Below are positions 12,239 to 34,184 of a stretch of DNA of 40,489 bases, in pieces. The position numbers were made by a program, and so were the translations under genes. The notes beneath the pieces were generated by a model. It was not told where the DNA came from, did no database searches, and saw nothing but the letters and a program-made list of their open reading frames with translations. The stretch is from a virus: IMG/VR virus record IMGVR_UViG_3300030116_003141, positions 2,488 to 42,976 of that record. One strand, given 5' to 3'. The stretch's first letter is position 1; every line of letters starts with the position of its first letter.

Positions 12239-12252
12239 TACAAATATACTAA
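12239..12252 (-). promoter_or_regulatory. Candidate promoter TTAGTATATTTGTA before the fibre module
   Basis: The minus strand reads TTAGTATATTTGTA across the TAG stop of the giant gene. It contains TATATTTG, a perfect TAnnTTTG -7 box, fifteen bases before the ATG at 12225. No TTG is visible at the expected -33 position. The same 14-base pattern lies in the gaps at 3752 and 40366. It would let the fibre module be transcribed separately from the 12-kb giant gene. Confidence 0.5.
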
Positions 12253-15200
12253 TTTCTTCCGTATCTATTTTTTCTTTCTCTTTTCTTTCTTTTAAACTTT
12301 CTAATGGTTTGCCCTCGTTTAGCAGGAGCACCCCATAAAAATGTTTTTAGATTTTCATCATCTGGACTTCCAAATGGATTACTTAAATTAGGTGTTAATG
12401 CAGCAGCCCATCGTTTCCATTTAGGGTCACCTTTTAAGCCATACTTACTATCTCGCTTATATTCTTCTTGTGTAATTAAGGTTATTACTAAATAATACAA
12501 GTTTAAGAAAGTAGAAAAAGCAGGCATGATAATCATGTTTTTAAGTTTTTCTGCATTAGTAATTAAGGCCATATCTGCTAAAAGTTTCTTTATTCTTTCA
12601 TCATCTCCTGATGCAGCTAACAAACCTGCAACTAAAAGCAGTCCTGTCATACCCCTGTGCAATCTTTGTAATGCCTGCGTTTGTGCTAATGTAAGTCCGT
12701 CTTTTTGATATTGATTATTAGACTTTGCAGAAGGATTCCATAAATTAGGGTCTAAATAAAACTTAGTATAATGTAGTGGGTCTACATATTTTTTTAATTT
12801 AATCTTGCCATCTTCAGTAGCAAACGCTTTTAAAGTACCTGTGTAGATTTCACCAAAATCGTCTATATAATCTATGTAATTTCCTTTACCTAATCTTTCT
12901 GATAAGAATGTTGGGAACCATCTTTTAAATTGTAGTACGGCAGAACCAACAACATATGTTTGCATCATACGCTGGTCAATAGCAGAATAACCACGACCTT
13001 GCATGTTTTGTACCTTACGTTGTTTTCTTGCTACATCATCAATAGATAATACATTTTTAGGGTCTACAACTATTAAGTTATTGTTTTCATCTAAGTCGTA
13101 AGCATTCCATTGTTCATCAGTAAGCTCTCCTAAAAACTGAACTTCTTGTATAAAACGTTCAGCAGATACCATTGGGTAAAATAATATTTTATCTAAATAT
13201 GTATCAAACTTAGCACCTTCTAACTGTTCTTCAGGTCTATAAGTAAGTATACCAAACTCCTCTAATAGTAATCTTGTTTTTCTAGATTGACTAGCAGAAA
13301 AAGCGCCTGTCACATTACTTATACCCATCCATCTCATGTGAGCTTTAGCAAACTTTACAGTACCTTGACTTCTCCAAGCGTTGTACTTACCTATTAAGAC
13401 GTTGTACATAGCTGCGGTAGTGTTAATACCCAAACCTACTCTCATTGTAAGGTTTACAAAAAAGTTAACAAAACTTCTTTCTAACTCTGGAAAAGGCGAT
13501 ATTGTTTGCTTTGGTCTTTGCATTACAAAAGCTTCAAGCATAGTTTCTTTCATATACCTAACAGCATTATTACTAATCTTGTTAGGATTCTTTTCTAAGT
13601 AAGTCATACCAGCACCTATTTCAAACTTATAAGCCTCAAATCCTCCAAAGTTAGGTACTGCATACCTTTGTCTTAGTTCGTCTGCCATGTTATATCTTTT
13701 GTTTTTAGCTTTTCTTGCTAACTCTTTAGAAGACATTGTACTTGCAGAGTTTAATAATAATAACCTACTTTCTCTTTTCTTATTAGTAGAGTTTTTGTTT
13801 ATAAAGAATTCTATTCTATTGTATCTACTACCGTCAAAAAATTCTGTACCATGTTGGAACACCATTGTTTTAACATAGTTATACATAGCATACTGCAGGT
13901 TACCACTAGCTAAATACTCAGCTCTATGAGAACGTTCAGACAAGTATCTGTTCATTGTTTTAGATTCTGTAGTAATAACTTGGTTTGCACCTTCTTCTGA
14001 TACTATTTCGTTACCTAACACATCTCTACCTTGATTAAGATAACCTTTAGCTAAAGATGTAAGCTGTGCAGTTTTTAAAATTCTATTAGATTGTGTAAAG
14101 TCACTTAATTTAACAACGCTTTCTAAATGTGGGTTATTAGTTAAAAACTCTTTAACCTCTTCTTTAGTTGCACTATATATAGATAAAAAGTCTTTTAATG
14201 GTTTTACCTCTTCTTTTCCAGACAAAGGATTGTATGCTCTTATTTTTACCATACTAGCATCACCTGCTCTACCTGCAAACTTATAATAAACTCCATATAT
14301 ACCACGCTTACGAAGAACTTCGTAATAACTTGAATCAGCAAGAGGAGAATAATACTTTCTATCTTTTGTATATAAACCTTTTGACTTTGCAAGTTGATTA
14401 TAAAATTGTGTATATCGAGATACTACACCAGCATAAGCTGCTTCTTCTTTAGATAGCAAACCATCTTTAATCATTTTTGTTACAGCAGCACTTTTAATAC
14501 TATTGTCTGCATTAAATATAGCGCTGTTAAGTCTATGTACTGATTCGTGTTTTATAGATTCTTCTTTACCTTCTACAAATCTTTTAATTCTACTTTTTCT
14601 TACAAGTATGTTTTCAAATAACTTATCACTAACAGACTCTGTAGATTTTAAAAGCCTCAAAACAGGCATACGAGAAACAAATTTTGTTGGAATTGTAAGT
14701 AATCCATACTTACTTTTATATAAATTGTTGTAAGCCTCGTTAAGTTCTTCTGTCATTCTTTTTAAATCTCTGTGCATAAGTTGGTTACCACGCTCTAAGT
14801 TTCTTCTTACAGAAGCTATAGTAGGGTGGTACTGACCCATATCACCAGGACTCATAAACATTTCTACAACAGATATATCACTAAACCTTTGTTCTGTTGT
14901 TGCTTTATCCATAAGAGCTCTACCTGCTGGAGTTTTTCTCCAATAAGTTTCTTGTTCATTACTTCTAGCAGCACCATATAAATATTGTATTTCTTGAGCT
15001 AAATTGTTTTTAGCTAAAGGATGTAAGTCAACTAATCTATTAAAGTAATCAGTTAATGTAGACAATTGTTTGTTTGCAAACATTAAATTTTGAGCAGTAG
15101 TAAATGGTATTTGATTACCTTCATCATCTTTTTCTTCTCTAAATACATTACTATCTTTATATAGCTGTTCTCTAATGTCTTTTACTTTAGATATACTTAT

Positions 15201-18200
15201 AGACCATTCGTCATAATCTTTTTTAAATCTTGTATAAGCTTCTGGATTGTCTACCTGTAAATCTCCTAACGTTTTAAAAGAGCTTATATAACCTCTCTCT
15301 TTTGCAAAAGCTTCTTCGCTAAACATAATATCGTTATCAAAAGCAAAAGAGCTTTGGTCTTCAGATTTTAAATAAAAAGTTCCTTCGTTTTTAAGTTTAT
15401 TATAATTAGATTGTATTGCACCACTATAAGTAAGTATAGCATCAAGTTCATTAAGCTTGTTGTCGCCTTTTATTATATGAGATTCGTTTGTAATTTTAGT
15501 TTTACCTGACTCGTCTTGTTCAAAAATTTTATATGATATTTTAAATAATACTTTACCTTTAGTTTGTATTGGGTTAATTTTAGATTCTGCTTTTGCTTCT
15601 TTTTCTGTAAGTTTAGAAATTATAGGAGATTGTAGTTGATAAGATGTTTTTGTTCCGTTTTCATTATACTTAACATATGTATTATTAGCCATGGGTTTAG
15701 TATAACCAGAAAAAGAATTTAAAGCATCCATAAATTTATTTACAGAAAAAGACTTTAATATTTCTGCCATTCTAAATAATACAAGAGTTTCGTCTTTTAT
15801 ATCTCCATCTATTTTGTCTACAAACTCTTCAGTAAAAAACTTATATCCACCAGTAAATAATTCATTGGCATGATACATTTCTTTTTGTATATTGTTTTTA
15901 GTCTTGTTCTTTTCTATAAAGTCAGAAGCTCTTTTAACTTCACTTCTTACATTTTTAGGTAAGAACATTAAAAATGTATTACCAGTTCCAGCGCCAAATT
16001 TATTATTGTAAAACTCGTATGTAATAAAATAGTTTTGTAACTCAACTGGTAACTTTAAAAATTCTTCACGAACAAGTTTAATGTTTTCATCTGTCTGTAT
16101 AGCATTGTACATTTGTTTGTCAACATTAATACTGTTATAATATTTAACAATTTCTCTGTTGTCGCCTTTATATCTTCTAAATACTTTTCTGTCTTTTCTT
16201 ACTTTAAGTAACTGTATAAAACCGTTATCAGAATGTTGACTTATAAGATTATACGCATTGTCGTTTATTTCTTTAAGTAATTCTTCTAATTGTTGTCTAC
16301 CTTTATACAGCTTTTTAATTTCTTCAAATCTTTCATTAGTAAGAGTACTATAGTTAAATAGCAAGTCTTGGAATGTTAAACCTTTATGTAAGCCATCATT
16401 AGCTTGTAGAGCGTCTGGCTTTAAATACACAGCCATTTTGTTGTAACGCAAAGCATTGTATAAAAACTGCACATTTTTTGGTTCAGAAAAATCAAATGTA
16501 TCTTTTGTATTATTATATATAATAGATGCGTCAGACTCTGTTATAATAGATTCTTCTAACTTACTATTCATATAAGTTTTAAAAGCTTTGCTTTGACTCA
16601 TTAAGTCCCCGTTAGACATAAACTTTCTTGCTATGTCTACTTGGTTAGCCATTACCTCGTCAACTTGTCTTGATAATACATAAGCCTCAAAATAATTAGC
16701 AGGTAACTTTTGGTCAAGAGATGCAAATTGTTGTAGTATTCTCATTTCTTTACCAAAAGAATCAAGAGCAACAATTAATGATGTAAATCCATTTAAATTA
16801 CTTTCTAATCCTTCTAACAGATTTAAACTAAAACCAGATGTAACAGTTTCTACGCTTCTATCTATATTGTCAAACATTGTAACTTTAGATAGTGCTTGAC
16901 TTTTACTCATACCAGAAGCAAACGCTTCCATGTATTGAACATATAATGGGTCGTACATTACATCTAAAACAGTTTCTAAAGATAGACCCATACGAAGCAT
17001 AAAAGCAAAATGATTAGCGCTTTCTTCCTGCATTCTAAATTTAGCTCTATTACCAAACTTACCATCATCAATAATAAAGTTTAAGAACTGTGCGTAGCTT
17101 AACCATATTTTGTCTTTGTTATCTGACAAGTTAGATACAACGCCAAGAAACTCTTGTTTACCTTTCATATTGATAATACCCATATTAATAGGTTTACCTT
17201 CTTTGTATCTAATTGTAGTTTGGTTTGTACTTCTAATAGCTCCAAGACCTGATGCAAAATAATTAAACGACCTGTTTAAAGATGCAACAATACCAAGCAT
17301 TACACTATTACCTATAAACCTGTCTTGTATATCTTGCTCATCCATAATAAGCAAGTCATCTTTTATTCTATCAAATTCCTTACGTTCTTTTTCTGTAAGG
17401 TGAACATTTCGTATATGGTCTAAACCTTTTTTAGTAATGTTTTCGTTAAACTCTACTTCTTGTAATATAAGGTCTTGGACTTCAGGTTGTTGGTAAAGCT
17501 CAAATAATAAATTTAAAAATTCATTTTTTAAGTTTTCCGACTTACTAAGGTTTGACTTCTTATTTAATACAGCAATGTGTAATTGGTCACCATCTTTATC
17601 CGAACCAATTAACGCACCATGAACAGAAGGTATAATTACTGCATTACCTTCTCTGTTAGACATTATCTCTTTAACTTGAAATACAAGTCCATCACCTATT
17701 TTTGAGTTAGGTATACGAGCTGCAAACACCATATCACCAACCTTAACATTATGTTCTTTAGCTAATGATTTTGATATTACTATTTCTGCAACTTTTATAA
17801 CACCATCTTCTTCTCTGTATGTTTTTAAGTCACCACTTGTTTTTGTGTTTTCTTCACCAATCTTATAATTGTAAGCTATATCTGTCATTTCAGTAGACAG
17901 TGTACCAGCAAACCTTGTTTGGAAAATATTTTTCTTTACATAACTAGCAACTACATTATTATAGAATTGCTCATTACCCATAAAGTGTGGTCCAAATTCT
18001 TCTACAGCTTTGCCGTCAATCCAACTGTACAAGCCTTCAACCCTTTCATTGTATATATTTTCAAACGATTTTTGTACAAACTTTTCCTCTACTTGCGCAG
18101 CTTTAATTTCACCTAATAAATTGTTAAGCCTAGCCAACACACCTTCACCAGTAGAGTTCATGCCTTTAATGCTACCTACTGTATTTAAAACCATAAGGTT

Positions 18201-21200
18201 AGACATGTATTGTTTAGACATTATAGAAGACTTATTTCTATTGTCTAATTTGTTTTGTATACCAAAGTTGTCTCCGTCAAAACCATATTGCACTATACCA
18301 TCTTCGTCTACAAACTTATATAAGTCATCTTGTTTGTTATTGAATAAATCACCAGTAGGCTCATTATTATTTATCTTTTCAGATATTTCTTTTATTTGCT
18401 CTATAGTGTAAGACATTTTATCCATTTGACTTGGAAGTAAACCACCTTTAATAGAGCTATCAAAGTAAACTACAGGTATAACATTTGGTCCTAATATAGC
18501 TGCTCTGTACTTTAATACATCTTGTATGTATTTTAAGTTTTTATGTTTATTAGCAGCCTGACCTGTAAGAGCGTGTGTATGCGTTTTAAAATACAATGGT
18601 ATACGATTAGCACCCATTGCAGATTCAAACGTTGTATTATCTAAATTTTGACCGTAGTATAAAGTTTTTAAGTTAGCACCTATATCATCAAACTCACCAT
18701 ATTGTATCTTCATCATTCTAACATGTTGAGGTAACATATATGATGCAGAGTCTGCTAATTGTACTCCATCTATTCTAGGGTCTTTTATTATAATAGGTTC
18801 TATTCTTTTACCATGTAAACTAACTAACGGTGATGATATACCTTTAACACGTTTAGATAAATCTTCTATAAAGTTTTTAACTTTTCCTTTACTATCTACA
18901 TCATATGCAGTTTGTGCATTTACTCTATTGTAGTATAGGTCAGAAAAATAAAACTTATTAATATAATTAATCTTTACAGCTTTTGTAACAGCATCAGCCA
19001 TAGCTTGAGTAACTTCTGTTATATGACCAGCCTTTACCAGTTGAGCAAACAATCTTTCTGCATTACTTTTAATATCCGCTTTTTTACCTAAAGTTCTTTG
19101 TATGCTATCCATAGCAGACTCTATATTTGCATCACTCCATAAAGGAGCATTACCTATATAGTATTGTCTACTTGAATCTCCTAACTGACCTATAAAATGG
19201 TTATAAGAATCGCTATTATTTCTGATGCTATCTATTAAGTGCATCATTCTTGCATTAGTTAATTCTTGCGCAGTAAGTTGAGAGTTCTTTTTACCTTTTG
19301 CTTGTCCTTCGTTGTAAAGACCTAAGCTTATAACAAGTTCAGGTGCATATCTACCACCAGTACCTTGTTCTCTCATTAACCTAGCAATTGCATTATCACC
19401 AAACAATTTGTCAAATCTTTCTTGACTCATTGTAGGTAATATTCTCATTAAGTTTTCTATGTTTTTGTGTACATAAGAAGTCTTATTAAATAACTCAACA
19501 GTATCACCTGCTGCGTTTTTAGTCATACCAGACAGAGCATTGTACCCTGCAAAATAATACATAGTATTATAAAGCTCTGTATACAAACCTCTATATAAAG
19601 ATGCAAAATTGTTTTTATTTGATTTTATAAAAGATTTTGGTGTATAATTGTTTTCTTTTGTTCCTTTTATGTAAAATATACTAGCTTTATTTTCTTTAGA
19701 TTTTTGTTGTTCTTCTGGTAATTGTTTCCAATTTTCAAAATCTCTTGTTATCGCAGCTTTTAATCTATCTTTAAGAACTAAACTATTTTTAATTGTAGAA
19801 CTACTATTTAATATAAAGTTTAATTGGCTTTGTAAATATTTTTGAGCATACTCTGTTTGTTTGCCGTTTGCAAAATATTTTGACCAATTAATATTTAATA
19901 AAGCAGATTGTAATTCATTAATTTTTTCTTCCGTAAAATAATTACTTATTTTCTTCCCTTCTATTCTTAAATCTTTTATCTCATCATAAGTAACAATTTT
20001 ATTAATCCATTCGTTGTGGAATTTTTGTAAAAAACCAACAATAGCTTGTTTACGAGTAGAAGGTTCTCTCATGCTTTCTAAAAGCACTAAAACATTTAAG
20101 TTGTCTTGAAAACTTTCTCCATTTATAAGTTTTTCTATAGCACCTTGTGTATAGTTTCTGACAGACCTTGCATCTCTAATAGGAATGCTTTGTTGTAAAG
20201 AAACCTTACCGTCTGCACCTACCACCCATTGGTTTGCTTTTTCTAATGTGAAAGAACGGAAGTAATTCCACATAGAACGAGTCACATCACCAGGGTGTCT
20301 CATATTGTTCTCTGCGTATATAATAAACTCTGCAAGTAATTCGTCTGTAGTTAAATCTGCATCTTCTTTTTTATTCTTTCTTGCATTATCTACAACTAAC
20401 TCTATTCTGTTTTTAAATAAGTCAAAATCATATTTAGTGCCACGCAATGCTTTTTCTAAAGCTTCGTATACATGACCTTTAGTTCTAATAGATTTACCTG
20501 TTTTACCTACATTGTATTCTTCAGTTAAAAACTCGTTAACCAAGTTGGCAACTCTTTCGTTTACCTTTCTACTAAAGTCTTCAGATATTATTTTACCAAA
20601 AGCAGTTTCTGTTTCTTCTTGGAATTGACCTAACTCTTCTTCGTCAATTTCACCATACTCAAACTTATCTTGTATGATTTCATTCAACGCTTCTAAATAA
20701 AAACCACCAAGAAGATTGTCTACATCTGCAGCATTTTTATTATAGTATTCGTCAATTAACGCTTTTTGTTCTTCGTCAAGACCTGTTTTAGAGTCAGCTA
20801 ATATTTTTGATAAAAATGATGCTTTATTAGAAAACAAATTTTCTATCATTTCTTGCTGGTCATAAACGTCTGGCCTTTGAACCCTGCCAAGTAAAAAGTT
20901 ATTGACTACTTGTTCTACCCTAGAATTAATTGCATCATTATTTGCAACTAAAGATTGTTCTATACTACTTTTAGCAAACGATTGTTCTGCAGTTTTTAGA
21001 TAAAACGGAGCAGTAATTCTTTTATAAGATTCATAACTTCTCTGTTTGTCTGGTCTTGAAAATTCTTCTCTTGCAGAATTTAACATGTCACCAAAGTCAT
21101 TACTAAACAATGAAGGGAAGTTTTCCTGCATCATATTGTTTGCTGACTTTTTACTAATAGAAGATTTTATAAGTTTCCAGGCATCTTTCATTTTCGTCTG

Positions 21201-24200
21201 AAACTTAGACTCGCCTTTTCCTACTCTAAAAAATTCTGTATTAGAGGCATCTTGTATACCACCTGCAGTAGCTAACGCTTCGTTTTGTATAGCATCTTGT
21301 TTGCTATCTGCTAATTGTTTGTAACCTTTTTCTTTTAACAATGGTGCTACATAATTCATGTAAGCAATATTTGCAGCATCTCCACTTTGTTTAAAACCGC
21401 TATCTATTTTCCATTGTTCAAAAGTTTTAATACTAGGGTTGTCAAATAGTATTTGACCTAACATACTTACAACACCATTTTTAGAATATTTTATTTTTAC
21501 ATGGTGTTCATTTTTTACTTTATTATAAACAGGCTGTTTTATAACTTCTTTTAATAAAGCTTTTATTTCTTTACTGCCTGCAAATAATTGTTGATAAGTG
21601 TGCCATTTTTCATGAACAAATACTTCTTGAGTTGCTAAATCAGGATTTATAAACATAGATAAACCTATAGCTTGACCTGCTGCACCTTTACCATGCTCAT
21701 CTGTAATATTATTATCCCAAAATACTGCTGATTCAGGATTTTCTTTTCTAAACTCATCAGCCCATACTTTACGCTGACCTCTTGTTAAAGCTTCTCTACC
21801 ATACTTATCTTTACCAAAAAACATTTTAGCTTTTTTAAGCCTTCTTGCTTCTGCTGCTTTTTGTATTTCTTCTTTAGTTTTTGGTTTAGATTCTTTGTCT
21901 TTCTTTTCTTGTCGTTCTTCTTTTTCTTTTTGTCTTTGAGCTTTTATCTTATCGTAAGTACCTTGGTTGTCTGCTTTTATTTTCTTTTCTTCTTCTGTAA
22001 GCGCAGTTTTATCTTCTTCTTTATTAAGTATGTCTTCTACTGCAAGTATATTGTTTTGACGAGCTTCTAAGGTTTTTTCAGAATTTTTTATAAGGTCTAC
22101 CGTAGTGTGCTTGGTAGTTTTCATGTTACCATTCTCATCAATCCTTACCTCTTCGTAAACTCTAAACTTACCGTCTGGTTTTAATTCACGTTGATATATA
22201 ATATCATTGTTACCTTCTTCTACATTTTTAATGTATTTATGCTTACTGGTAACCATTCTATCTGCTTTCCTTCTTCTTTCTTCTTTTTTAAGTTTATCAT
22301 AAACTTCTTGATTTTCAGAAACCAGTTTAGAATCTTCTTCATTTAATGGTTGGTTTTGCTCTTGCTTTGCTAATACATCTTTTAATAAAGGAACAACTTC
22401 TTTTTGTATTCTTTCATTTTGACGACGTTTAGCGCTTTCAGTCATTATATTATCAACTTCAGACTTTGTGTTTTGTTGTAACGACTTCCAGCTTTGTTCT
22501 AAATTATCAAGCTCATTATCTAAACCTGCAACTTGTTTCTTTTTTGCAGCTAAACTTAAATCATTAGATTCGTCTATTTTAGCTTTTTCACTTTCTAATT
22601 TTTCTTTTTGTCTTTCGTATTCTTTTTTGTTTTCGTTTTTATTAAAAAGAATTTCTAATAACCGAGAAGATTCGTTAGCATTTAAACCAAAATCAGGCGC
22701 AAGCTTTTTAACTTCTTCTAATTCTTTTACAGAATTTAAATATGTATCAAGTTCGGCTTTTGTCATTTTGCCTTCTTGTTGTTTTTGAGTCAAAAAGTCT
22801 TTAATGTAGTCGCCTTTGTTTTGTGCAACACGTCTAATCATGTATGCAAAAAATTGATTGCTTTTCATAGCTCTTAACTCTTGAGCTGCACTTTTAGCTG
22901 TTGCTCTTTCAGGAGTGTCACGCTGACCTTGCATGTCGTAATCTTCTACCTCTTGGTCTAATATATCTAACCTTTCTTGGAATAAACCATCAGCAGCCAT
23001 TTCTTCTTGAAATAACTTTTTTCTTTCAGCTGAAACGTCTAATGCTGTTTTACCACCAGTAACCACCAAAGAAGATGTAAATGCAATCACACGCGTCGGT
23101 AAAGCTTCTTGGCTTAAAAAGTAATCTAAATAATTACCTACGTTTTCAGAAAATGTACCTCTTTCGTAATCTGTGTTTTGTTCTGCTATTCTGGTTTTCA
23201 TAGCCCAGTCTTGATACACTTCTTGAAATTGTTCAAGCATTGCATCAGTTAAAGCATAACCTGTAACTTGCGACATTTGTTGCACAAATCTTTTCATACC
23301 AGGCGCTTTCATTCTTAAAGCACCTTTTGATAATCCTTTTAAAATATTACCTGTACCAGTAAATATTCCTAATTGCGCACCATCTACTGCAAACCAATAT
23401 AAGTTATCTCTAAACACATCTGCTGCAGCCACAGAAGCTTGTTCTAATGGTACACCTTGTTCTAATGCATCATTAAGAGTTTGACCCGCTATAATAGCAC
23501 CTTCTGACATGTTACCTGCAAGACCACCACCTAAAAATGTAGTTGCCGTTCTTGCTATTTTAGAACCTTTTTCTGCTCCAACAAGTCCTGTAGCAGCTAA
23601 AGCTCTACCTGCTCTAAAACTTTTTTCACCTTTAGAAAGCATAGACAACCCCTTGTATAAATAGTTAGCACCTCTTGCACCAGCTATACCAGGAATAAAA
23701 AACGAAAGTGTAAAGGGAAGCGCTCTTGCAAAGTGTGTTGTCCAAAATTCTGGCTCTAACATACTTGACCAAGTAACTCCTGACATATCTTCTAAACCAG
23801 GTACTCTATCGCCAAATGATTGTAAATCTGCACCAGCTTCATGAAACCAATCAGAAAGAGGTTTGTTTAAATCTTCACCATATAATTCTTTATATAGCTC
23901 TGATTCCATTACTCTTGTATCAGGGGTGTCATCTATAAAATCTATAGCATCACCTATACCATCAAATACATCACCAAGACCAGCTAAAAGAGAACGACCA
24001 GCTTTTTCAACACCAGACATATCATAGTCTACTTGAGCTTCTTTTTCTTTTTGTTTAGCTAACGCTTCATTATATGCATCTAATTCTTGTTGCTCTTCAG
24101 GACTAAACCCTATACCAAATAAATCAGTAGCACTCGAAGAAGTTTGCTCTGGTATGTTTGTAATATTAGATGTATCTATTGTATCTGATGAACCCTGAGG

Positions 24201-24278
24201 TTCTGTTGGTGTGTTAGACAAAAAACCTAAATCGTATTTTTTGATGTCTTCACCTGGTTTACCTACTCCGTTTGACAT
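12249..24278 (-). CDS. Giant 4009-aa virion protein with RNA-polymerase-like and zincin-like motifs
   Basis: One unbroken 12-kb frame. Visible parts in order: hydrophobic LPFTLSFFIPGIAG (~186-200); Lys/Glu-rich coiled coil (~540-870) with an internal repeat (627-671 and 742-786); HEKWH at 889-893 with a possible third ligand E1000, as in zinc metallopeptidases; ADSASYMLP around 1843 and FKTHTH with K1898; DNFGIQNK near 2004-2010; R-I-P at 2188-2190, then GSDKDGDQLHI with the Asp triad at 2227/2229/2231; QFKRWFPTFL near 3782; hydrophobic segment ~3880-3892; strongly basic C-terminus. In bacterial beta-prime, R-x-P precedes DFDGD by 35 residues; here the distance is 39. I infer a virion-packaged polymerase related to crAss-like phage proteins, injected with the DNA. 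A giant phage polyprotein with 'large polyvalent' domains is the alternative and is not exclusive. It follows muralytic ejection-like genes with TAATG coupling. Confidence 0.6.
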   Translation of the reverse strand: MSNGVGKPGEDIKKYDLGFLSNTPTEPQGSSDTIDTSNITNIPEQTSSSATDLFGIGFSPEEQQELDAYNEALAKQKEKEAQVDYDMSGVEKAGRSLLAGLGDVFDGIGDAIDFIDDTPDTRVMESELYKELYGEDLNKPLSDWFHEAGADLQSFGDRVPGLEDMSGVTWSSMLEPEFWTTHFARALPFTLSFFIPGIAGARGANYLYKGLSMLSKGEKSFRAGRALAATGLVGAEKGSKIARTATTFLGGGLAGNMSEGAIIAGQTLNDALEQGVPLEQASVAAADVFRDNLYWFAVDGAQLGIFTGTGNILKGLSKGALRMKAPGMKRFVQQMSQVTGYALTDAMLEQFQEVYQDWAMKTRIAEQNTDYERGTFSENVGNYLDYFLSQEALPTRVIAFTSSLVVTGGKTALDVSAERKKLFQEEMAADGLFQERLDILDQEVEDYDMQGQRDTPERATAKSAAQELRAMKSNQFFAYMIRRVAQNKGDYIKDFLTQKQQEGKMTKAELDTYLNSVKELEEVKKLAPDFGLNANESSRLLEILFNKNENKKEYERQKEKLESEKAKIDESNDLSLAAKKKQVAGLDNELDNLEQSWKSLQQNTKSEVDNIMTESAKRRQNERIQKEVVPLLKDVLAKQEQNQPLNEEDSKLVSENQEVYDKLKKEERRRKADRMVTSKHKYIKNVEEGNNDIIYQRELKPDGKFRVYEEVRIDENGNMKTTKHTTVDLIKNSEKTLEARQNNILAVEDILNKEEDKTALTEEEKKIKADNQGTYDKIKAQRQKEKEERQEKKDKESKPKTKEEIQKAAEARRLKKAKMFFGKDKYGREALTRGQRKVWADEFRKENPESAVFWDNNITDEHGKGAAGQAIGLSMFINPDLATQEVFVHEKWHTYQQLFAGSKEIKALLKEVIKQPVYNKVKNEHHVKIKYSKNGVVSMLGQILFDNPSIKTFEQWKIDSGFKQSGDAANIAYMNYVAPLLKEKGYKQLADSKQDAIQNEALATAGGIQDASNTEFFRVGKGESKFQTKMKDAWKLIKSSISKKSANNMMQENFPSLFSNDFGDMLNSAREEFSRPDKQRSYESYKRITAPFYLKTAEQSFAKSSIEQSLVANNDAINSRVEQVVNNFLLGRVQRPDVYDQQEMIENLFSNKASFLSKILADSKTGLDEEQKALIDEYYNKNAADVDNLLGGFYLEALNEIIQDKFEYGEIDEEELGQFQEETETAFGKIISEDFSRKVNERVANLVNEFLTEEYNVGKTGKSIRTKGHVYEALEKALRGTKYDFDLFKNRIELVVDNARKNKKEDADLTTDELLAEFIIYAENNMRHPGDVTRSMWNYFRSFTLEKANQWVVGADGKVSLQQSIPIRDARSVRNYTQGAIEKLINGESFQDNLNVLVLLESMREPSTRKQAIVGFLQKFHNEWINKIVTYDEIKDLRIEGKKISNYFTEEKINELQSALLNINWSKYFANGKQTEYAQKYLQSQLNFILNSSSTIKNSLVLKDRLKAAITRDFENWKQLPEEQQKSKENKASIFYIKGTKENNYTPKSFIKSNKNNFASLYRGLYTELYNTMYYFAGYNALSGMTKNAAGDTVELFNKTSYVHKNIENLMRILPTMSQERFDKLFGDNAIARLMREQGTGGRYAPELVISLGLYNEGQAKGKKNSQLTAQELTNARMMHLIDSIRNNSDSYNHFIGQLGDSSRQYYIGNAPLWSDANIESAMDSIQRTLGKKADIKSNAERLFAQLVKAGHITEVTQAMADAVTKAVKINYINKFYFSDLYYNRVNAQTAYDVDSKGKVKNFIEDLSKRVKGISSPLVSLHGKRIEPIIIKDPRIDGVQLADSASYMLPQHVRMMKIQYGEFDDIGANLKTLYYGQNLDNTTFESAMGANRIPLYFKTHTHALTGQAANKHKNLKYIQDVLKYRAAILGPNVIPVVYFDSSIKGGLLPSQMDKMSYTIEQIKEISEKINNNEPTGDLFNNKQDDLYKFVDEDGIVQYGFDGDNFGIQNKLDNRNKSSIMSKQYMSNLMVLNTVGSIKGMNSTGEGVLARLNNLLGEIKAAQVEEKFVQKSFENIYNERVEGLYSWIDGKAVEEFGPHFMGNEQFYNNVVASYVKKNIFQTRFAGTLSTEMTDIAYNYKIGEENTKTSGDLKTYREEDGVIKVAEIVISKSLAKEHNVKVGDMVFAARIPNSKIGDGLVFQVKEIMSNREGNAVIIPSVHGALIGSDKDGDQLHIAVLNKKSNLSKSENLKNEFLNLLFELYQQPEVQDLILQEVEFNENITKKGLDHIRNVHLTEKERKEFDRIKDDLLIMDEQDIQDRFIGNSVMLGIVASLNRSFNYFASGLGAIRSTNQTTIRYKEGKPINMGIINMKGKQEFLGVVSNLSDNKDKIWLSYAQFLNFIIDDGKFGNRAKFRMQEESANHFAFMLRMGLSLETVLDVMYDPLYVQYMEAFASGMSKSQALSKVTMFDNIDRSVETVTSGFSLNLLEGLESNLNGFTSLIVALDSFGKEMRILQQFASLDQKLPANYFEAYVLSRQVDEVMANQVDIARKFMSNGDLMSQSKAFKTYMNSKLEESIITESDASIIYNNTKDTFDFSEPKNVQFLYNALRYNKMAVYLKPDALQANDGLHKGLTFQDLLFNYSTLTNERFEEIKKLYKGRQQLEELLKEINDNAYNLISQHSDNGFIQLLKVRKDRKVFRRYKGDNREIVKYYNSINVDKQMYNAIQTDENIKLVREEFLKLPVELQNYFITYEFYNNKFGAGTGNTFLMFLPKNVRSEVKRASDFIEKNKTKNNIQKEMYHANELFTGGYKFFTEEFVDKIDGDIKDETLVLFRMAEILKSFSVNKFMDALNSFSGYTKPMANNTYVKYNENGTKTSYQLQSPIISKLTEKEAKAESKINPIQTKGKVLFKISYKIFEQDESGKTKITNESHIIKGDNKLNELDAILTYSGAIQSNYNKLKNEGTFYLKSEDQSSFAFDNDIMFSEEAFAKERGYISSFKTLGDLQVDNPEAYTRFKKDYDEWSISISKVKDIREQLYKDSNVFREEKDDEGNQIPFTTAQNLMFANKQLSTLTDYFNRLVDLHPLAKNNLAQEIQYLYGAARSNEQETYWRKTPAGRALMDKATTEQRFSDISVVEMFMSPGDMGQYHPTIASVRRNLERGNQLMHRDLKRMTEELNEAYNNLYKSKYGLLTIPTKFVSRMPVLRLLKSTESVSDKLFENILVRKSRIKRFVEGKEESIKHESVHRLNSAIFNADNSIKSAAVTKMIKDGLLSKEEAAYAGVVSRYTQFYNQLAKSKGLYTKDRKYYSPLADSSYYEVLRKRGIYGVYYKFAGRAGDASMVKIRAYNPLSGKEEVKPLKDFLSIYSATKEEVKEFLTNNPHLESVVKLSDFTQSNRILKTAQLTSLAKGYLNQGRDVLGNEIVSEEGANQVITTESKTMNRYLSERSHRAEYLASGNLQYAMYNYVKTMVFQHGTEFFDGSRYNRIEFFINKNSTNKKRESRLLLLNSASTMSSKELARKAKNKRYNMADELRQRYAVPNFGGFEAYKFEIGAGMTYLEKNPNKISNNAVRYMKETMLEAFVMQRPKQTISPFPELERSFVNFFVNLTMRVGLGINTTAAMYNVLIGKYNAWRSQGTVKFAKAHMRWMGISNVTGAFSASQSRKTRLLLEEFGILTYRPEEQLEGAKFDTYLDKILFYPMVSAERFIQEVQFLGELTDEQWNAYDLDENNNLIVVDPKNVLSIDDVARKQRKVQNMQGRGYSAIDQRMMQTYVVGSAVLQFKRWFPTFLSERLGKGNYIDYIDDFGEIYTGTLKAFATEDGKIKLKKYVDPLHYTKFYLDPNLWNPSAKSNNQYQKDGLTLAQTQALQRLHRGMTGLLLVAGLLAASGDDERIKKLLADMALITNAEKLKNMIIMPAFSTFLNLYYLVITLITQEEYKRDSKYGLKGDPKWKRWAAALTPNLSNPFGSPDDENLKTFLWGAPAKRGQTIRKFKRKKRERKNRYGRN

Positions 24279-26096: not shown

Positions 26097-28100
26097 TTAA
26101 TTTAAATTTCCTGTTGTGTCTTTTGTGTCTGTACTATCTTTACCAATGTTTTGTAATATACCTGACAATGCAGACATTGCATACTGGTTTGATTCGCTAG
26201 TTTTATTGTAATCACCTATTGCATCTATAAGAGCTTGATTGTTTTCTTGGTCTTTAAAGTTTCTATTAAACTCCATAGCTTGTTCATACAAAGATATACC
26301 CTGCTTAGATATTCTATCTTTTCTTGCTTGGTCTAAACTTTTTTGTAATTTTTCATTACCCATATCTGCAGTTAGTTTTGCTTGTGTATAATCACCAACT
26401 GCTTGTTGATACATCTTCATTCCGTCCATTCTCATAGCTGCACTTTTTCCCGCAAGGTCTACAAGAGCATTTACTCTTGATGCGTCTACAGCACCCATAT
26501 TAGCTAAAGCCATACCACGTTGCCCACCTGATATAGCCATTACATTTTTCATAGCACCTGAATAAGCTTGATTTAAATCTTTAATAGCAGCCATTTTTTC
26601 CTCATAAGGCATACCTGTTTCAGATATTTCTTCTGCTTTTCTTATAGCTTCTAACATTAAAGGGGATACTCTTGCTTTATTTACCTTGTCTTTTTTTTGC
26701 GCTTCATACAAAGATAACAATCCTGCACCAGCACGCAAAGCATTAGAAACACTTTCACCATTAATTCCTAAATTCCTTAAACCTTCACCTATTTTTTGAC
26801 CAGCTAATTTTAAACCAGCAAATTTTATAGGTTCAGAAGCAGGAACATCTAACATGCTTTGTCTTGTAGGAGTCACATTCATTTCATTAGGAATAGATTT
26901 TATTCCTTTAACGTCTAATGAAATAGTTTCTACTTCTTCTCTAGTTTGTGGTTGAACTGGTTGAGTAGGCGTAGTAGGCGTAGCAGGCGTAGTAGGTGTT
27001 TCTGTTTTAACAGGTTCTGGAACAGTCGAATCAAATCTAGATAAAAAATTAGAAATGTCTTCTTCACTATAACTAGGTATATCCATACCATATGTATCCC
27101 TGATACTAGTGCTTGCTGGTCTTTTTAAAGAAGTTAAATATTTATCAGCTAAATCTCTATCTTCAAAACTTAAAGACGAATCTTCTTTTAATCTATTTAA
27201 TTTAGATATTCTAGAATTTTTAACATCAGATAAATGTTGACTATATAAACCACTAAGACTTACATTTCGAGTTCTTCTTAAGTCGTTTATATTTTCAGCA
27301 TCTAAAACTTCAGCAAAAGATTTAGCTTTTAATATATTTTTTTCTTCTTCATTGTAGTCTGTATCTGCATCAATCCTAGAAACTATATCATTATAAACAG
27401 TTGTTTGACTTTTATTTAATTTAGAAGTATCAACTACAGAAGGTTTTTTTGTAGGTTTTTTTGTTTCTACAGGTGGTTTTTCAGCAGCTAACTTATCTTT
27501 TATACCTCTTTGTACTTGAGATGCTCTTTCTATAACTGCTTCATACTCAGGGTTTTCAGAAACAAGACTTAAAGGAAAAACACCATCTTTGTCAAAAAGA
27601 GCCATTTTTTCCTGATACATTCTTGGGAACATTTGCTCTAAAGATTCGTCTGGAGCATATTTAGAATTTATTCTTTCCCCCTCTAAAGCCTCTGAAATCT
27701 CTAACTCACTTGTAGTAGTATCACTAAGAAGAGGTTCGTAACCAGGCATTCCTGTTGTAAAAGTTTCCCATAAATCACTTCTATTAAGAGCTTCGTAATT
27801 ACCTGTAGAAACTTCATCAAGAACTCCACGCATATCTAACAAGGCTAACATTGCAGCTTCTTGGTCCGCAGCATTAGGACTCCAAGCATCTATTCCGTAT
27901 TTAGCTAAAACATCATTTCTTGTGTCTGTAGTAAATTGACCTGCACCAAAAGCTGTGCTATTACCAGATGACCTATTAAAACCACCTAAATTATTTGCAC
28001 CTGATTTTGTTTTATCAGCCTCGTATCTATAAACATAGGTAACAAACTTTTGTAAATATTTGTTTGTCTTTAATAGATTTATAAATTTTTGCTTATCCAT
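26097..28100 (-). CDS. 667-aa protein with N-terminal lambda-lysozyme-like domain
   Basis: Residues ~15-125 resemble the phage lambda endolysin (transglycosylase) fold: a Y-R-Y-E with candidate catalytic E27, then NSTAFGAGQF (48-56), Y-G-I-D-A-W-S-P near 68-75, A-x-D-Q-E-A-A, and a G-N-Y-E-A-L-N ... W segment like the G-D-x-x-x-A-L-x-x-x-x-x-x-W of that family. A Pro/Thr linker (~365-385, TPTTPATPTTPTQP) separates an acidic helical region from the C-terminal half, which is Ala/Met-rich and helical with a cluster of short Gly-rich stretches. The modular, long form suggests a virion-borne muralytic ejection protein rather than a lysis enzyme. It overlaps the previous gene by eight bases and reaches to within one base of the next. 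Confidence 0.65.
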   Translation of the reverse strand: MDKQKFINLLKTNKYLQKFVTYVYRYEADKTKSGANNLGGFNRSSGNSTAFGAGQFTTDTRNDVLAKYGIDAWSPNAADQEAAMLALLDMRGVLDEVSTGNYEALNRSDLWETFTTGMPGYEPLLSDTTTSELEISEALEGERINSKYAPDESLEQMFPRMYQEKMALFDKDGVFPLSLVSENPEYEAVIERASQVQRGIKDKLAAEKPPVETKKPTKKPSVVDTSKLNKSQTTVYNDIVSRIDADTDYNEEEKNILKAKSFAEVLDAENINDLRRTRNVSLSGLYSQHLSDVKNSRISKLNRLKEDSSLSFEDRDLADKYLTSLKRPASTSIRDTYGMDIPSYSEEDISNFLSRFDSTVPEPVKTETPTTPATPTTPTQPVQPQTREEVETISLDVKGIKSIPNEMNVTPTRQSMLDVPASEPIKFAGLKLAGQKIGEGLRNLGINGESVSNALRAGAGLLSLYEAQKKDKVNKARVSPLMLEAIRKAEEISETGMPYEEKMAAIKDLNQAYSGAMKNVMAISGGQRGMALANMGAVDASRVNALVDLAGKSAAMRMDGMKMYQQAVGDYTQAKLTADMGNEKLQKSLDQARKDRISKQGISLYEQAMEFNRNFKDQENNQALIDAIGDYNKTSESNQYAMSALSGILQNIGKDSTDTKDTTGNLN
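26965..27000 (-). repeat. Four tandem 9-bp units coding a Thr-Pro linker
   Basis: The plus strand shows four consecutive copies of a 9-bp unit, gtaggcgta, with small changes in units 3 and 4. On the coding strand they give the T-P-T/T-P-A linker of the lysozyme-like protein. Repeats of this kind can change length by slippage, which would alter linker length without breaking the frame. Confidence 0.8.
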
Positions 28101-29568
28101 ACATATTCATTTTTGCGCCAGGAAATGGATTTTTACCTCCTGCGTCTGCGTTAATCTTTGATGCTATTTGTCTATTAGTACCTGTTATTGTTTTTACTTT
28201 GTTATCATCTATAGCAGATTTTTTAACAATAAATTCTCCACCTTCTACTTCTATAGGAATACCGCCTTCAGCATGAGAAGGGCCATATAACATACCTCCT
28301 AATTCTGCATAAGCAATTTTACCTGTGTCTGTAAGGCCAGATATATATTCAGATATTTGTTTTGCTTGCTTTTCTTTATAAGCTTCATAAGAAGCTTTGC
28401 TTTCTTCTCCTTGTAGATAAGTCATATGCTCAAACTGTTGTTTTCTCATATGCCTTTTTGCCTTTCTTCCAACACCAAAAAGTTTACTAAAAGCTTCTGC
28501 TCCAAATTCTGCAATATTACCTATAAGCCTACCTGCTGCAACATTACCACCAGTTAAAATAGTACCAAGAGCAAAACCAACACCTTCTGCTGCGGCACCA
28601 TACTTTTGAGCTCTTGCTTCTTTTAACATAGTTGTTTGAGATTTTTTGTCGTAAGCTATGTCATCAGGACTATCTTTATAAAAGTCTTTATACCCTCTAA
28701 CACCAGATGAATAGTCGCTAACCATTTCCATACCCGTCATGGCAACAGCAGCTACATCAGCCACCTTTCCCAATGCACTACCACCTGCTTGCTCTCCTAC
28801 CTGTTCTTGAGCGCTTGTACCTACAGCATCTAAATTTATTTGTGTACCCATTTGTGCTGCAGAGTCAGAAAAAGGACCATAATAATTACCCGTTGTCGTA
28901 AGAACATTAGAATTTATTTGATTTGCATCAATTTGATATAAATCATCAGGAGTAATAACATTACCTCCACTTTGATATTTTTTCATACCACTTCTATCTT
29001 GCCATTTTTTAAATTCCATATCTTTATGTTCTTTAGTCATGTTATCAAAACTTACCATTGTATTTTTAGTACCTGGCACTTTAAATTTTTTTTTATGATG
29101 CTTACCCCATACTTCAAAAACTTGTTCAGAAGTAGGTTTATCATCACCGTATATTAAATTTTGATAATCTTTAGCAGAATCTCCATACATCATATCAGCA
29201 ATAAAAACTGCATCTTGAGTTCCTGGTTGTAAATAAGAAACATTAGGTTGAGCTTGTTTACTTACCTGATAAAAAGTTTTGTCTTTTGGTTTTGTATCAA
29301 AATTTGCATTTATAAAATTTGTTAATCTATTAGTAGCTGTTTTAGCGTGATTACTTGCGCCCATCTCCATTTGATATGCACCTCTTGCAGGTCCACCATC
29401 TTTTTGTGATGCAGCATAATTACCACCACTTTCCATATTACGAATAGCCTCTGATATTATATTTACAGACGTAGTATCTGCACCCCTACTTAATAATTCA
29501 TCATACATAGCAGTACGCATAGGGTTGTACTTTTTTGCTGGGTCTATGTGATTTTTATTATGAGGCAT
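28093..29568 (-). CDS. 491-aa protein with N-terminal SLT-like domain and GGIPIEVEGGE motif
   Basis: Residues ~35-130 look like a soluble lytic transglycosylase domain: I-I-S-E-A-I-R-N-M-E-S-G-G with candidate catalytic E46, followed by DGGPARGAYQME (57-68). Around 300-370 there are Gly/Ala-rich hydrophobic segments (GFALGTILTGGNVAAGRLIG) that could enter a membrane. Near the C-terminus (428-450) is YGPSHAEGGIPIEVEGGEF, a motif I know from phage tail-internal and tape-measure-like proteins. Together this suggests an ejected protein that opens peptidoglycan and perhaps helps form a channel. It starts at the ATG sharing a base with the stop of the 1538-aa gene (TAATG). Confidence 0.65.
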   Translation of the reverse strand: MPHNKNHIDPAKKYNPMRTAMYDELLSRGADTTSVNIISEAIRNMESGGNYAASQKDGGPARGAYQMEMGASNHAKTATNRLTNFINANFDTKPKDKTFYQVSKQAQPNVSYLQPGTQDAVFIADMMYGDSAKDYQNLIYGDDKPTSEQVFEVWGKHHKKKFKVPGTKNTMVSFDNMTKEHKDMEFKKWQDRSGMKKYQSGGNVITPDDLYQIDANQINSNVLTTTGNYYGPFSDSAAQMGTQINLDAVGTSAQEQVGEQAGGSALGKVADVAAVAMTGMEMVSDYSSGVRGYKDFYKDSPDDIAYDKKSQTTMLKEARAQKYGAAAEGVGFALGTILTGGNVAAGRLIGNIAEFGAEAFSKLFGVGRKAKRHMRKQQFEHMTYLQGEESKASYEAYKEKQAKQISEYISGLTDTGKIAYAELGGMLYGPSHAEGGIPIEVEGGEFIVKKSAIDDNKVKTITGTNRQIASKINADAGGKNPFPGAKMNMYG

Positions 29569-32500
29569 TATATAATATTTTTTCTATAATGAGTTGTTGC
29601 TGAAAATACATTTATTGCGTTAGCTGTATTAGCCGCTTCAGTCATTTTTATTTTAACATAGTTTCCTTTAAACCTACCAGATGTTTTATGTATAGGAACT
29701 ATTTGTTTACCTACAACTACTTTATCAATATCTGTTGCAGTTAAATCTAAAGTAGCTGCATCATCCACATTTGTGTTGTATACAAATGTACTAAAAATAC
29801 CTGTACCTGGACTTCCATCAAAAGATATAGAAACTTTATCAAAAACTTTTAAAGAACCTACCTCTTCATTATTTACAAATTCAACGTATGGAGCTAATAA
29901 AGTTTCTCCATAAAATTCATTATATGTTGTTGCTGTACTATCGTGAGAATAAACTGTATACCTTAAAGCAGAGCCACTAGGTACTGGAGTTCCATGCTTA
30001 TGACCTACACTATATAAATATTCCTTGTGAGCAGTATTAATTAAAGTATTGTAACTTCTTTTAGAAGTAAAAGCTCCAATAGCTTCATCATAACATATAT
30101 TAAGATAATTTAAAGCTCCAGAGTCATAATAACTAATACTAAACATTACTTCATTAAAAAAAGGATTATAAGATATGTTTATACCTCCGGAATTATAAGT
30201 AGATAACAATAAAGGGTTATCACTTAATCTTATTTTTCTTAATGGAGTTAATGCATTAGAACAACTTTTTACAGTAGATAAATCTACCACCATTTTAGGG
30301 CTTTTAGCATCTACTTCACATATAGTGTTATTATCATTGTCATACCAATATAAACCTAAGTCAGTCGCTAAAGCATTCATTCTGTGCCTGCTTCCGTATT
30401 TAGTGCTTATGTAATCATTTCTTTCTATTACGTTACCAGCTCCTAATGCTGACTGAATAGCAATAGCAGAACCGTCTTCACTTTGTATTAAAGCTCTAGA
30501 ATTTATAGAAAGAATAGAAACTGCTTTTTCTTGTATAGCGTATATGTTATTTCTAAAGTTTATTATATTATTTACACCGCCATGATTTGCATCTACTTCA
30601 AAATTTTCATTAGCATCAAATTTAGAAAAAGCATCTTGTGTTTGTCCAGCTACTTTTATATTAGATATAGCTATTACATTTTTATATTCATTAACTATAG
30701 GTATTGCAGATTGTTTTGCTGGAAAGCTTTTTAAATTATTTTCAGCACCATATGCTGTGTTTAAAACAAATTCATCTTCTTTATCTAATTGAGGTAAATT
30801 TTTACCAAAATAAACGCCTGAACGCATATCAGTATTTATAGAAGACTCAACTGGAAAAACCACACCTTCAGTCCATAAAGCTGTTGTGTCGCTAGGAAAA
30901 CTAGGTCTAAAGCATTTACTAAGCGAGAACATGTTTAAGTATGTATCACCACCAAATACAGGTAAAATCATTTCATCACTAGTTATATCGTCCCCGTGTA
31001 AAGAAGCTCCTGTGCTAATCCATCTTGTAGTTTCAAAATTAGTTAATGAATTACCACCATATTGACCAGAGTTTACAGTAATTTGTCTAATAATTTTACC
31101 ATATGGTTTACATGCAGCGTAATTTTCACCCTCTACAAGTGGTGTATTTAAAGCTACTGAAGCGCTACTCATGGTAAAATAACTACCGTCATTTTGTGCT
31201 AACATTAAAGTTCTATTACTATGCATGTTAACCTTTTGTCCATCTGCTTGTATAAGAGCAGCACTTGTGTGTAAATAACTAATTGTATCAGAACTATCAG
31301 TATAATGCCTACAAGCATTTACATAGTCTTTAGTTTTATTATCAAGTAAAGCTGAATTTACAACCTCAAAAGGACCTACATTCTGACCATAATGTATTGC
31401 TTTTGTCCAATGACCTTTTTCATCATAATCGTGAATAGGTATATTACCTTCTTGGCAATAGTATCTTGTATAGTAAGAATTTCTTCTATTGTCATCACGC
31501 GCGTTAGTATCAGTTAAAGTTACAACAGATTCATTATCTGTATGTATAGCATAATGATGGTCAATATCTCCTGAAACTCCGCGAACATCAGTTTTATTAC
31601 CTGCGTTAGATTTTAACACATTACTACCACCACCGTCAGGCAAATCTGCATCAGCAATATAATGACAATTAAATTTACATTCTATCTTTATAAAATCATT
31701 TGCGCTATGAGTGTAACTATGAAGGCCAAATAAAACATCTGGAGAATCTAATGTGTATATTTCTGAGTATGAGGCGTTTGGACCAAAAGAGCTGTCACCT
31801 GTTACTTGAGTAAAAAGATTTAACTTTTCATTTGCGTATCTATTTTTTAAACTTCCATTAACAGAAGAATTATTCATTTCTAAAGTTTGATTTAACAAAC
31901 CTGCACATACAACTCTTTTGTCAGTATCATTTCTTTCTGCTCTTACAATACTAAAACCTGATATTTTATCTCTAACAGCAGAACTAAGTCTTACTCTAAA
32001 TTCTGGATACAATATAAAACCTCTACCTGATTCATCACATAACACATATTCCGTAGGAGTTCCTGCGCCTCCTTCTGTTACGCTATAATCACCAACAGTT
32101 GTTCCTAAATATCTATATTTATCTCCTGCTGAAGGAAACCTTATATCACCTATAGGGTATGAAAATGTTTGATTACCATCTTTATCATAAAACTGAATAC
32201 CAAAACGATATATTTCGTCTCTCATGTATCCTACATATTTATTTGCAAATACAGGGTTTTTATAATTATTGTAATAACCATCTTCACCATTTCTAGCTAT
32301 AGGTCCAAAAAATGGAGCTCTTGCGTAACCTGTGTTATTACCATCTGCATTTGTAAAATTATGGTAGTAATCTATTTTATCTAAATCACATTCTTTTAAT
32401 TTAAAAGTAACATACACCCCATTTACATCTCCACCTGAATGATAACCAGGAGTGCTGGCTCCAAACATAGGTATAGTATTTGAAGTTTTTCCTTCAGCAT

Positions 32501-34184
32501 ATCTAAAAAAAGTTTCATCAGTATGAGTTTTTTTATAAACATCAGCTTGATACAAACTTGTACTATGATATTCGCTGTCAGCTACATATGCACCACTAGC
32601 AGGTGAGGTCATAAAAGAAGCAAAATTACTAGCATCATCATGCTTGTAAGTTTTTACCCTAAATGTAGTATTGTCCGTAATTAAATTTCCTACTGTGTTT
32701 TTTAAATTTGCTGCTAATAACCTGTTGTCTTTTACTGCTAAATCTTGAGCAATATCCCAAGTATTTTTTTTAGAAAGAACTTCTTCGGCAGTAATAACAG
32801 TTGTATTTTCATTTCCTGAATGTGTAATTCTAATTAAAGATTCAGATATAACTTCATCTTTTAATAAGAAAAAAGCAGCAGAACCTATTTCATCTAAATA
32901 TTGTATACCTATGAGTTGTATTCTGCTATATATTGTTGAAGGATTGCTTACTTTTAAAGTAACAGATTTACCTGAAGATTCTGCTACTGTACCTCCTACA
33001 GCTTGAGAATACTCTGAACCTTTTGATGATTTAAATAAAGGAGTTGGATTAGTTATTGGGGATGTTACAGATAGTTTACCATCTGAAGTTACTAACCTAT
33101 AACAATAAGACCAACTACCGCAATTAATGCTTCCACTATCTTGTACAGTTTCTATTTCTAATGGAAGTAATGGCGATTTTGCAAAAAGATTAAAATCATC
33201 AGCAGAAGTAAACGTAGAGTAGTAATCACCAGTAGCATTTAAATTAACTGTTTTAATTGGGTTTACACCATCTGTCCAATACAACCTATTGTAATGCTCA
33301 TTTTCTTCTATTTTTTGAGCTTGTATTGACGATGTTTCTGTTAAACCAAAGTCACCCATAACAACTGGTGTTACGCCAAAAAACAATCCATCTTCATCTG
33401 TAGTAAACTTTACTACAGCTTGTAAATTAGCCGTGTAATAACAAACTGCTGCAATGTAATCAGAAAAAGAAGTTAACGATATAGGTTTTAATTTTATTTT
33501 AGTTTCTCCAACAAAAGAAGTAAAAGTTACACCATCGTTAACGCTATCGGTAGTGGAATTTGAAAATGTAGTTATAAAACTAATATTCTGGACATCCACA
33601 CCTTGAGTTATAGGAAAAAACCATAACTCTTGTGAATTCCCTTTTGGTAAAGGAGAAACATCACTTCTAGTACCTATCATTACTTGCATAACTGAAGTAA
33701 AGTTAGGGTCACTTATCATTTGGTCGTAAACATGTCCTAAAACTTTGTCAGCATTTGAATTTGTAGTGTCAGGTGCTGGTGACCAATTTGTACCAGATGA
33801 AAAATCTACATCATAATAATTTTGGTTAGAACTTCCGTCGTTAAATTGATAATTTGCAGTTGCTGCATCTGTAAAAGCAAATCTTATATTTGTTATTGCA
33901 TTTGGGTTTACTGCTCCTCCGTCTACCCACCAGTTTTGAGTAGTAGGTCTAAATCTCCAACCTGTAAGTTGTATAATACCTGCTGCTTTATTAGATTGTA
34001 AATTTTGTAAGGCACCTAAATCGCCATCTTTATTGTTGATTCTTACATTTAAACCATCAGTATATTGGTCGTTACCAATAAGATGCTCATCTGTATCGGT
34101 ATTCATACCTTTATAAAATACATTAGCTTTTTTACCACCAACAAGCGCAGAAAGCTGTTTTTTTAATGAAGATTCTTTAGCCAT
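29568..34184 (-). CDS. 1538-aa tail stabilisation/muzzle-like protein
   Basis: A large, mostly beta protein without membrane segments. Near the N-terminus it has F-Y-K-G-M-N-T-D-T-D-E-H-L-I ... Y-T-D-G-L-N-V-R-I, a pattern (KGxNxDxDxxLL...Y.D.xNxR) that I associate with the big tail 'stabilisation' or muzzle proteins of crAss-like and other Bacteroidetes short-tailed phages. The remainder alternates strands and Asn/Asp/Ser loops, with NNIINFRNNIYAIQEKAVSI and LYWYDNDNNTICEV resembling propeller-like blades. It comes directly after the connector proteins, where a tail-tube or muzzle gene is expected. Both ends share a base with their neighbours (TAATG on each side). The role is assigned by motif, length and position. 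Confidence 0.6.
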   Translation of the reverse strand: MAKESSLKKQLSALVGGKKANVFYKGMNTDTDEHLIGNDQYTDGLNVRINNKDGDLGALQNLQSNKAAGIIQLTGWRFRPTTQNWWVDGGAVNPNAITNIRFAFTDAATANYQFNDGSSNQNYYDVDFSSGTNWSPAPDTTNSNADKVLGHVYDQMISDPNFTSVMQVMIGTRSDVSPLPKGNSQELWFFPITQGVDVQNISFITTFSNSTTDSVNDGVTFTSFVGETKIKLKPISLTSFSDYIAAVCYYTANLQAVVKFTTDEDGLFFGVTPVVMGDFGLTETSSIQAQKIEENEHYNRLYWTDGVNPIKTVNLNATGDYYSTFTSADDFNLFAKSPLLPLEIETVQDSGSINCGSWSYCYRLVTSDGKLSVTSPITNPTPLFKSSKGSEYSQAVGGTVAESSGKSVTLKVSNPSTIYSRIQLIGIQYLDEIGSAAFFLLKDEVISESLIRITHSGNENTTVITAEEVLSKKNTWDIAQDLAVKDNRLLAANLKNTVGNLITDNTTFRVKTYKHDDASNFASFMTSPASGAYVADSEYHSTSLYQADVYKKTHTDETFFRYAEGKTSNTIPMFGASTPGYHSGGDVNGVYVTFKLKECDLDKIDYYHNFTNADGNNTGYARAPFFGPIARNGEDGYYNNYKNPVFANKYVGYMRDEIYRFGIQFYDKDGNQTFSYPIGDIRFPSAGDKYRYLGTTVGDYSVTEGGAGTPTEYVLCDESGRGFILYPEFRVRLSSAVRDKISGFSIVRAERNDTDKRVVCAGLLNQTLEMNNSSVNGSLKNRYANEKLNLFTQVTGDSSFGPNASYSEIYTLDSPDVLFGLHSYTHSANDFIKIECKFNCHYIADADLPDGGGSNVLKSNAGNKTDVRGVSGDIDHHYAIHTDNESVVTLTDTNARDDNRRNSYYTRYYCQEGNIPIHDYDEKGHWTKAIHYGQNVGPFEVVNSALLDNKTKDYVNACRHYTDSSDTISYLHTSAALIQADGQKVNMHSNRTLMLAQNDGSYFTMSSASVALNTPLVEGENYAACKPYGKIIRQITVNSGQYGGNSLTNFETTRWISTGASLHGDDITSDEMILPVFGGDTYLNMFSLSKCFRPSFPSDTTALWTEGVVFPVESSINTDMRSGVYFGKNLPQLDKEDEFVLNTAYGAENNLKSFPAKQSAIPIVNEYKNVIAISNIKVAGQTQDAFSKFDANENFEVDANHGGVNNIINFRNNIYAIQEKAVSILSINSRALIQSEDGSAIAIQSALGAGNVIERNDYISTKYGSRHRMNALATDLGLYWYDNDNNTICEVDAKSPKMVVDLSTVKSCSNALTPLRKIRLSDNPLLLSTYNSGGINISYNPFFNEVMFSISYYDSGALNYLNICYDEAIGAFTSKRSYNTLINTAHKEYLYSVGHKHGTPVPSGSALRYTVYSHDSTATTYNEFYGETLLAPYVEFVNNEEVGSLKVFDKVSISFDGSPGTGIFSTFVYNTNVDDAATLDLTATDIDKVVVGKQIVPIHKTSGRFKGNYVKIKMTEAANTANAINVFSATTHYRKNII

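Follow-up and report, generated by a model that had tools for sequence, protein, structure and literature searches.

A zincin-like HExxH site ahead of the virion RNA polymerase in the giant cargo protein of an uncultured crAss-like phage

The virion RNA polymerases of N4-like phages are always fused to an MPTase-type HExxH domain (Iyer et al. 2017, PMC5512222), and in the N4 polymerase itself, gp50, the C1 HExxH domain has been placed in the zincin superfamily (PMC5512222, PMC12633501). In the metallopeptidases of polyvalent proteins, alternation between HExxH and HExxxH has been described (PMC5512222). Among crAss-like phages, gp47, gp49 and gp50 of crAss001 are virion components, and a model of ejection by unfolding has been put forward (PMC10172136), and gp76, gp77 and gp78 of phi14:2 are virion proteins by MS/MS. 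A virion RNA polymerase fused to the tape measure, gp96, is described from the Thermus phage P23-45 (PMC10770324).

The window analysed here is a stretch of 40,489 nucleotides from a 42,976-base viral record, with coding almost wholly on the minus strand. Its landmarks are as follows.

37837-39282: major capsid protein, matching crAss-like capsid proteins (best E 2e-17)
34184-34825: tail tubular protein
29568-34184: muzzle-like protein, matching a PHROG virion structural protein (E 1.9e-71)
12249..24278, minus strand: giant cargo / virion RNA polymerase protein, 4009 aa in a single ORF

Three cargo-size ORFs lie between the muzzle-like ORF and the 4009-aa ORF, and the resulting order of tail tubular, muzzle-like, cargo and giant genes is that of Suoliviridae cr50_1 and cr113_1. 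The window has both the crAss-type major capsid protein and the tail tubular/muzzle/cargo gene order that mark the order Crassvirales, and the phage is crAss-like and uncultured. A contig search of the genomes with the polymerase found no relatives, so there is no clue to the host from that side. Elsewhere in the window, two small ORFs at 3212-3640 and 11650-12225 have similar N-termini (ITAR[KR]NDSF) and are probably paralogous fibre-associated proteins. The N-termini of the ORFs at 26097-28100 and 28093-29568 look lysozyme- or transglycosylase-like by eye (GAGQF, GAYQME), a reading that found no database support and was dropped.

The giant protein is divided as follows.

23019..24278, minus strand: N-terminal module, residues 1-420, with an HMM match to residues 155-351 of phi14:2 gp78 (E 2e-12)
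21129..21881, minus strand: HExxH zincin-like domain, approximately residues 800-1050, recognised by conservation in alignments A2 and A6
16599..19481, minus strand: virion RNA polymerase core, residues 1600-2560, recognised by AlphaFold, Foldseek and HMM
17586..17600, minus strand: DKDGD, the polymerase catalytic Asp motif, residues 2227-2231, with D2227, D2229, G2230 and D2231 invariant
12252..14081, minus strand: C-terminal module, residues 3400-4009, with HMM matches to phi14:2 gp76 (2.2e-15) and crAss001 gp49 (5.2e-11)

AlphaFold was used to predict the structure of residues 1600-2560 (pLDDT 82.9, pTM 0.80), and Foldseek returned the phi14:2 virion RNA polymerase as the best PDB match (6vr4_A; E 3.8e-20, probability 1.00, TMq 0.65), with QDE-1 type RNA polymerases next and P23-45 gp96 further down the ranking. 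An HMM of the same residues matches phi14:2 gp77 and crAss001 gp50, and the counterpart of DKDGD in crAss polymerases is SDFDID or SDFDVD. On the evidence of the model, this region is a double-psi-barrel crAss-like virion RNA polymerase of the phi14:2 type, with its DxDxD in one chain; the structure comparison confirms what the initial annotation had called a polymerase-like region.

The 4009-aa protein consists of the fused counterparts of three separate phi14:2 virion proteins, gp78, gp77 (the virion RNA polymerase) and gp76, in the same order. It shares its homologous polymerase core and terminal modules with phi14:2 gp78-gp77-gp76 and crAss001 gp47-gp49-gp50, and it is one ORF in every complete relative. 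The extent of fusion differs among these phages: all three modules are in one chain here, the Suoliviridae examined have the HExxH domain and the polymerase fused, with the third module as the next gene, and in the Steigviridae none are fused. Across 32 near-complete giants, 36 of the 4009 columns are invariant. The HExxH domain is flanked by the N-terminal module on one side and the polymerase, the second module, on the other, and residues 1001-1600, like a linker, have no invariant residue.

The residues of the HExxH site, and a second match to the motif, are located as follows.

21600..21614, minus strand: HEKWH, residues 889-893, with H889 and H893 as predicted metal ligands and E890 as predicted general base
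21297..21299, minus strand: Q994, six residues before E1000, invariant in 33/33 sequences
21279..21281, minus strand: E1000, predicted third metal ligand, in a predicted helix and invariant in 33/33 sequences
14535..14549, minus strand: HESVH, residues 3244-3248, a second HExxH, judged a chance match

E1000 belongs to the segment NEALATA (residues 999-1005, window 21264-21284), and the whole site falls within window positions 21237-21640, which encode residues 880-1014. The HESVH at 3244 was considered as a real site; it appears as HETIH in L019 but is missing from L001 and other relatives, and was set aside as chance.

The domain was aligned across 33 sequences with a median pairwise identity of 17% (alignment A6). 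Its sole invariant residues are H889, E890, H893, Q994 and E1000, and the 32 near-complete giants have only these same five between E353 and G1653; the predicted site accounts for four of the five. The Lys/Glu-rich segment ahead of the motif has no invariant residue. The initial annotation had placed HEKWH and the candidate E1000 correctly, as the ORF translation bears out, and it had singled out H889, H893 and E1000 with a single sequence to go on and no alignment yet made, so finding these three among only five invariant residues means that a genuine prediction was passed.

Relatives were also sought with patterns in which HExxH had no part, and all 17 of the loci so found have the motif at the same place. 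When the polymerase served as the seed, the search brought up 44 loci. The distinct giants, that of the window included, number 36, and 34 of them have the region complete. HExxH or HExxxH is present in 34/34 of the latter, at residues 859-1138 and ahead of DxDGD by 1201-1661 residues, so the loss in close relatives that had been named as counting against the site was not seen. The HExxxH variants are HEYGGH (L057), HEYTGH (L059), HEFTGH (L060) and HELTGH (L062), and this lineage keeps H, E, H and the distal Glu. In the polymerase tree the four share one branch with L070 and L071, which have HEFGH, and because the branch includes these two, the switch from HExxH to HExxxH appears to be either a single event that was later reversed or a repeated one.

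AlphaFold was also used to predict residues 800-1110, from a 16-sequence alignment (pLDDT 64). The model places HEKWH in a helix spanning its residues 85-99, as expected of a zincin, and the conserved Glu in the following helix (model residues 196-212). The model shows an N-terminal helix and the site helices; at a threshold of E<=0.001, Foldseek matched it to nothing in PDB or BFVD. The stretch before HExxH, where the three-stranded zincin sheet is expected, is mostly below pLDDT 50; given this and an alignment of only 16 sequences, the missing zincin fold does not refute the assignment. Of the metallopeptidase first suggested here, the site formed by HExxH and the distal Glu has proved genuine, and the fold is unconfirmed.

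Profile searches did not name a family either. The giant and the members of the domain alignment had no significant zincin match in Pfam, PHROGs or NCBIfam, and the weak zincin-family hits (Tox-MPTase2 0.0021, M54 0.073, SprT 0.078) were too isolated to use. A sequence search of the PDB gave no significant match, the best relevant one being ADAMTS4 at E 1.9 through the motif only, and tblastn of the domain against annotated phages gave no match. As a control, the N4 domain likewise found no zincin in Pfam, so the silence of Pfam is weak evidence. With hhalign, the domain scored above 150/150 shuffles against the N4 and gut crAss HExxH domains, but when the HExxH columns were masked the N4 score dropped into the null and the gut crAss score aligned elsewhere. 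The similarity is that of the motif alone, and because the masked control failed, homology to the N4 domain is not claimed, nor is homology to the gut crAss domains. Since no profile homology to a known family was found, no family name is assigned; its pattern of conserved residues gives good support for a domain that works like a zincin.

In its arrangement, the giant resembles N4 gp50 and the polyvalent-protein MPTases, in which HExxH with a distal Glu, or HExxxH, occurs in a giant injected protein with a virion polymerase. As in N4, the insert between the site helices is variable, with 68-84 residues from the first His to the candidate Glu in N4-like proteins and 84-156 here. Unlike here, where the polymerase is a crAss-type double-psi barrel and the HExxH domain precedes it, N4 has a T7-like single-subunit polymerase with the HExxH domain after it. 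P23-45 gp96 (L114, 1-13296), likewise an injected giant, combines a DxDGD polymerase with a peptidase domain in a single chain, but it belongs to a long-tailed phage, its polymerase is N-terminal and its peptidase is M23, not HExxH.

Among crAss-like phages, the Suoliviridae giants cr50_1, cr4_1 and cr113_1 (4,328-4,774 aa) have HExxH ahead of DxDxD in one chain. These proteins (L111, 15826-30150; L112, 8524-21999; L113, 11392-24378) have HExxH and the SDFDID polymerase motif; they are labelled 'DNA helicase', 'hypothetical' or 'DprA-like', labels that look wrong, and the cr4_1 and cr113_1 frames have many stops, consistent with stop reassignment. In crAss001, gp47 has HEAFH 184 residues before its C-terminal end and the polymerase is separate. 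In phi14:2, gp78, the counterpart of the HExxH-bearing half, has no HExxH and a C-terminus that is weakly GNAT-like (L034, 10911-11630; three GNAT families below cut-off, 0.014), where an enzyme-domain swap is possible. Third-module proteins have matches of their own: phi14:2 gp76 (L034, 98-4363) has HEIMH with HEFISEV downstream, and that of L112 (22001-27412) has HEILH, so by their motifs some crAss-like cassettes seem to have a second HExxH domain there.

The fusion of an HExxH domain to a virion polymerase is not unique, since N4 is a published precedent (PMC5512222, PMC12633501) and the gut Suoliviridae giants have it too; calling the combination unusual, as was done from this sequence alone, was an overstatement. 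A literature search, not exhaustive, found no paper naming a zincin in crAss polymerase proteins.

We propose that residues ~800-1050 are a zincin-like metallopeptidase domain (HExxH...E, gluzincin-type) which is packed in the virion, injected with the polymerase and cuts protein in the host, and we put the probability of this reading at roughly 0.65. The metal would be held by H889, H893 and E1000, with a water activated by E890. By analogy with its relatives, the fused cargo chain would be packed in the virion, then pass out through the tail largely unfolded and refold in the host, where the polymerase would transcribe early genes and the peptidase would cut protein. Zinc binding, proteolysis and the substrate are all predicted. 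Because a strictly conserved zinc-protease-type site precedes a polymerase that related phages carry in their virions, these phages probably inject protease and polymerase as one chain.

What the peptidase would cut is a closer question. It may cut its own chain near the boundary of the N-terminal module and the polymerase, at maturation or after injection, and so free the polymerase. The position of the domain between modules that are separate proteins in phi14:2 and crAss001 fits this, as do the linker-like residues that follow it and the P1 protein DdrB, which has such a domain and is cleaved before packaging (PMC5512222). Against it, no conserved cleavage site was seen, phi14:2 gp78 has no HExxH domain, the N4 polymerase is packaged unprocessed (PMC5512222), and the domain stays on crAss001 gp47 despite the separate polymerase. 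Self-processing is possible but somewhat doubtful. Since gp47 retains the domain with the polymerase a separate gene product, we lean slightly towards a target in the host or in trans, rather than towards the polymerase being cut free of its own chain; since gp78 does without HExxH, not every crAss-like phage needs the domain.

Other readings change what the domain is. Proteins other than peptidases also have HExxH, the zincin fold was not recovered in the model, and in discussing their domain the N4 authors mention HExxH proteins associated with radical SAM (PMC12633501), so the site could belong to a different enzyme, such as an alpha-ketoglutarate/iron HExxH fold or another metal hydrolase; this seems unlikely, as both the HExxxH variation and the invariant distal Glu in the next helix agree with the zincin pattern described for polyvalent proteins (PMC5512222). 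A cell-wall endopeptidase that opens peptidoglycan at ejection, as the M23 domain of P23-45 presumably does, is a still poorer fit. P23-45 gp96 links its DFDGD polymerase to Peptidase_M23 (E 1.4e-21), so a peptidase of the wall-hydrolase type can ride on an injected polymerase, but M23 peptidases form an unrelated class, and the examined part of gp96 has no HExxH. We know of no N4-type HExxH domain that is a wall hydrolase. That the motif is a chance match or a decayed structural remnant is very improbable: it has no database match, composition predicts 0.037 HExxH at this length and at least one arises in 3.2% of shuffled sequences, but H, E, H and E are strictly conserved at very low overall identity, and the 123,350 residues that lie outside the region contain 3 HExxH matches, an expectation of ~0.01 per 400 residues.

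crAss-like phages rank with the most abundant phages known, and the protein cargo that works in their hosts is of megadalton size. Two polymerase folds are concerned here, T7-like in N4-like phages and the double-psi barrel in crAss-like phages, and as a tentative idea, an HExxH peptidase may have been tied in cis to an injected polymerase at least twice, on unrelated folds, to give a coupled entry module in which early transcription would depend on proteolysis for its start or its protection. From the single-chain giant one can also see which virion proteins form a functional group. The conserved protease-type site beside its polymerase offers a residue-level handle, E890, with counterparts in crAss001 gp47 and N4 gp50, by which one can ask whether early infection needs proteolysis.
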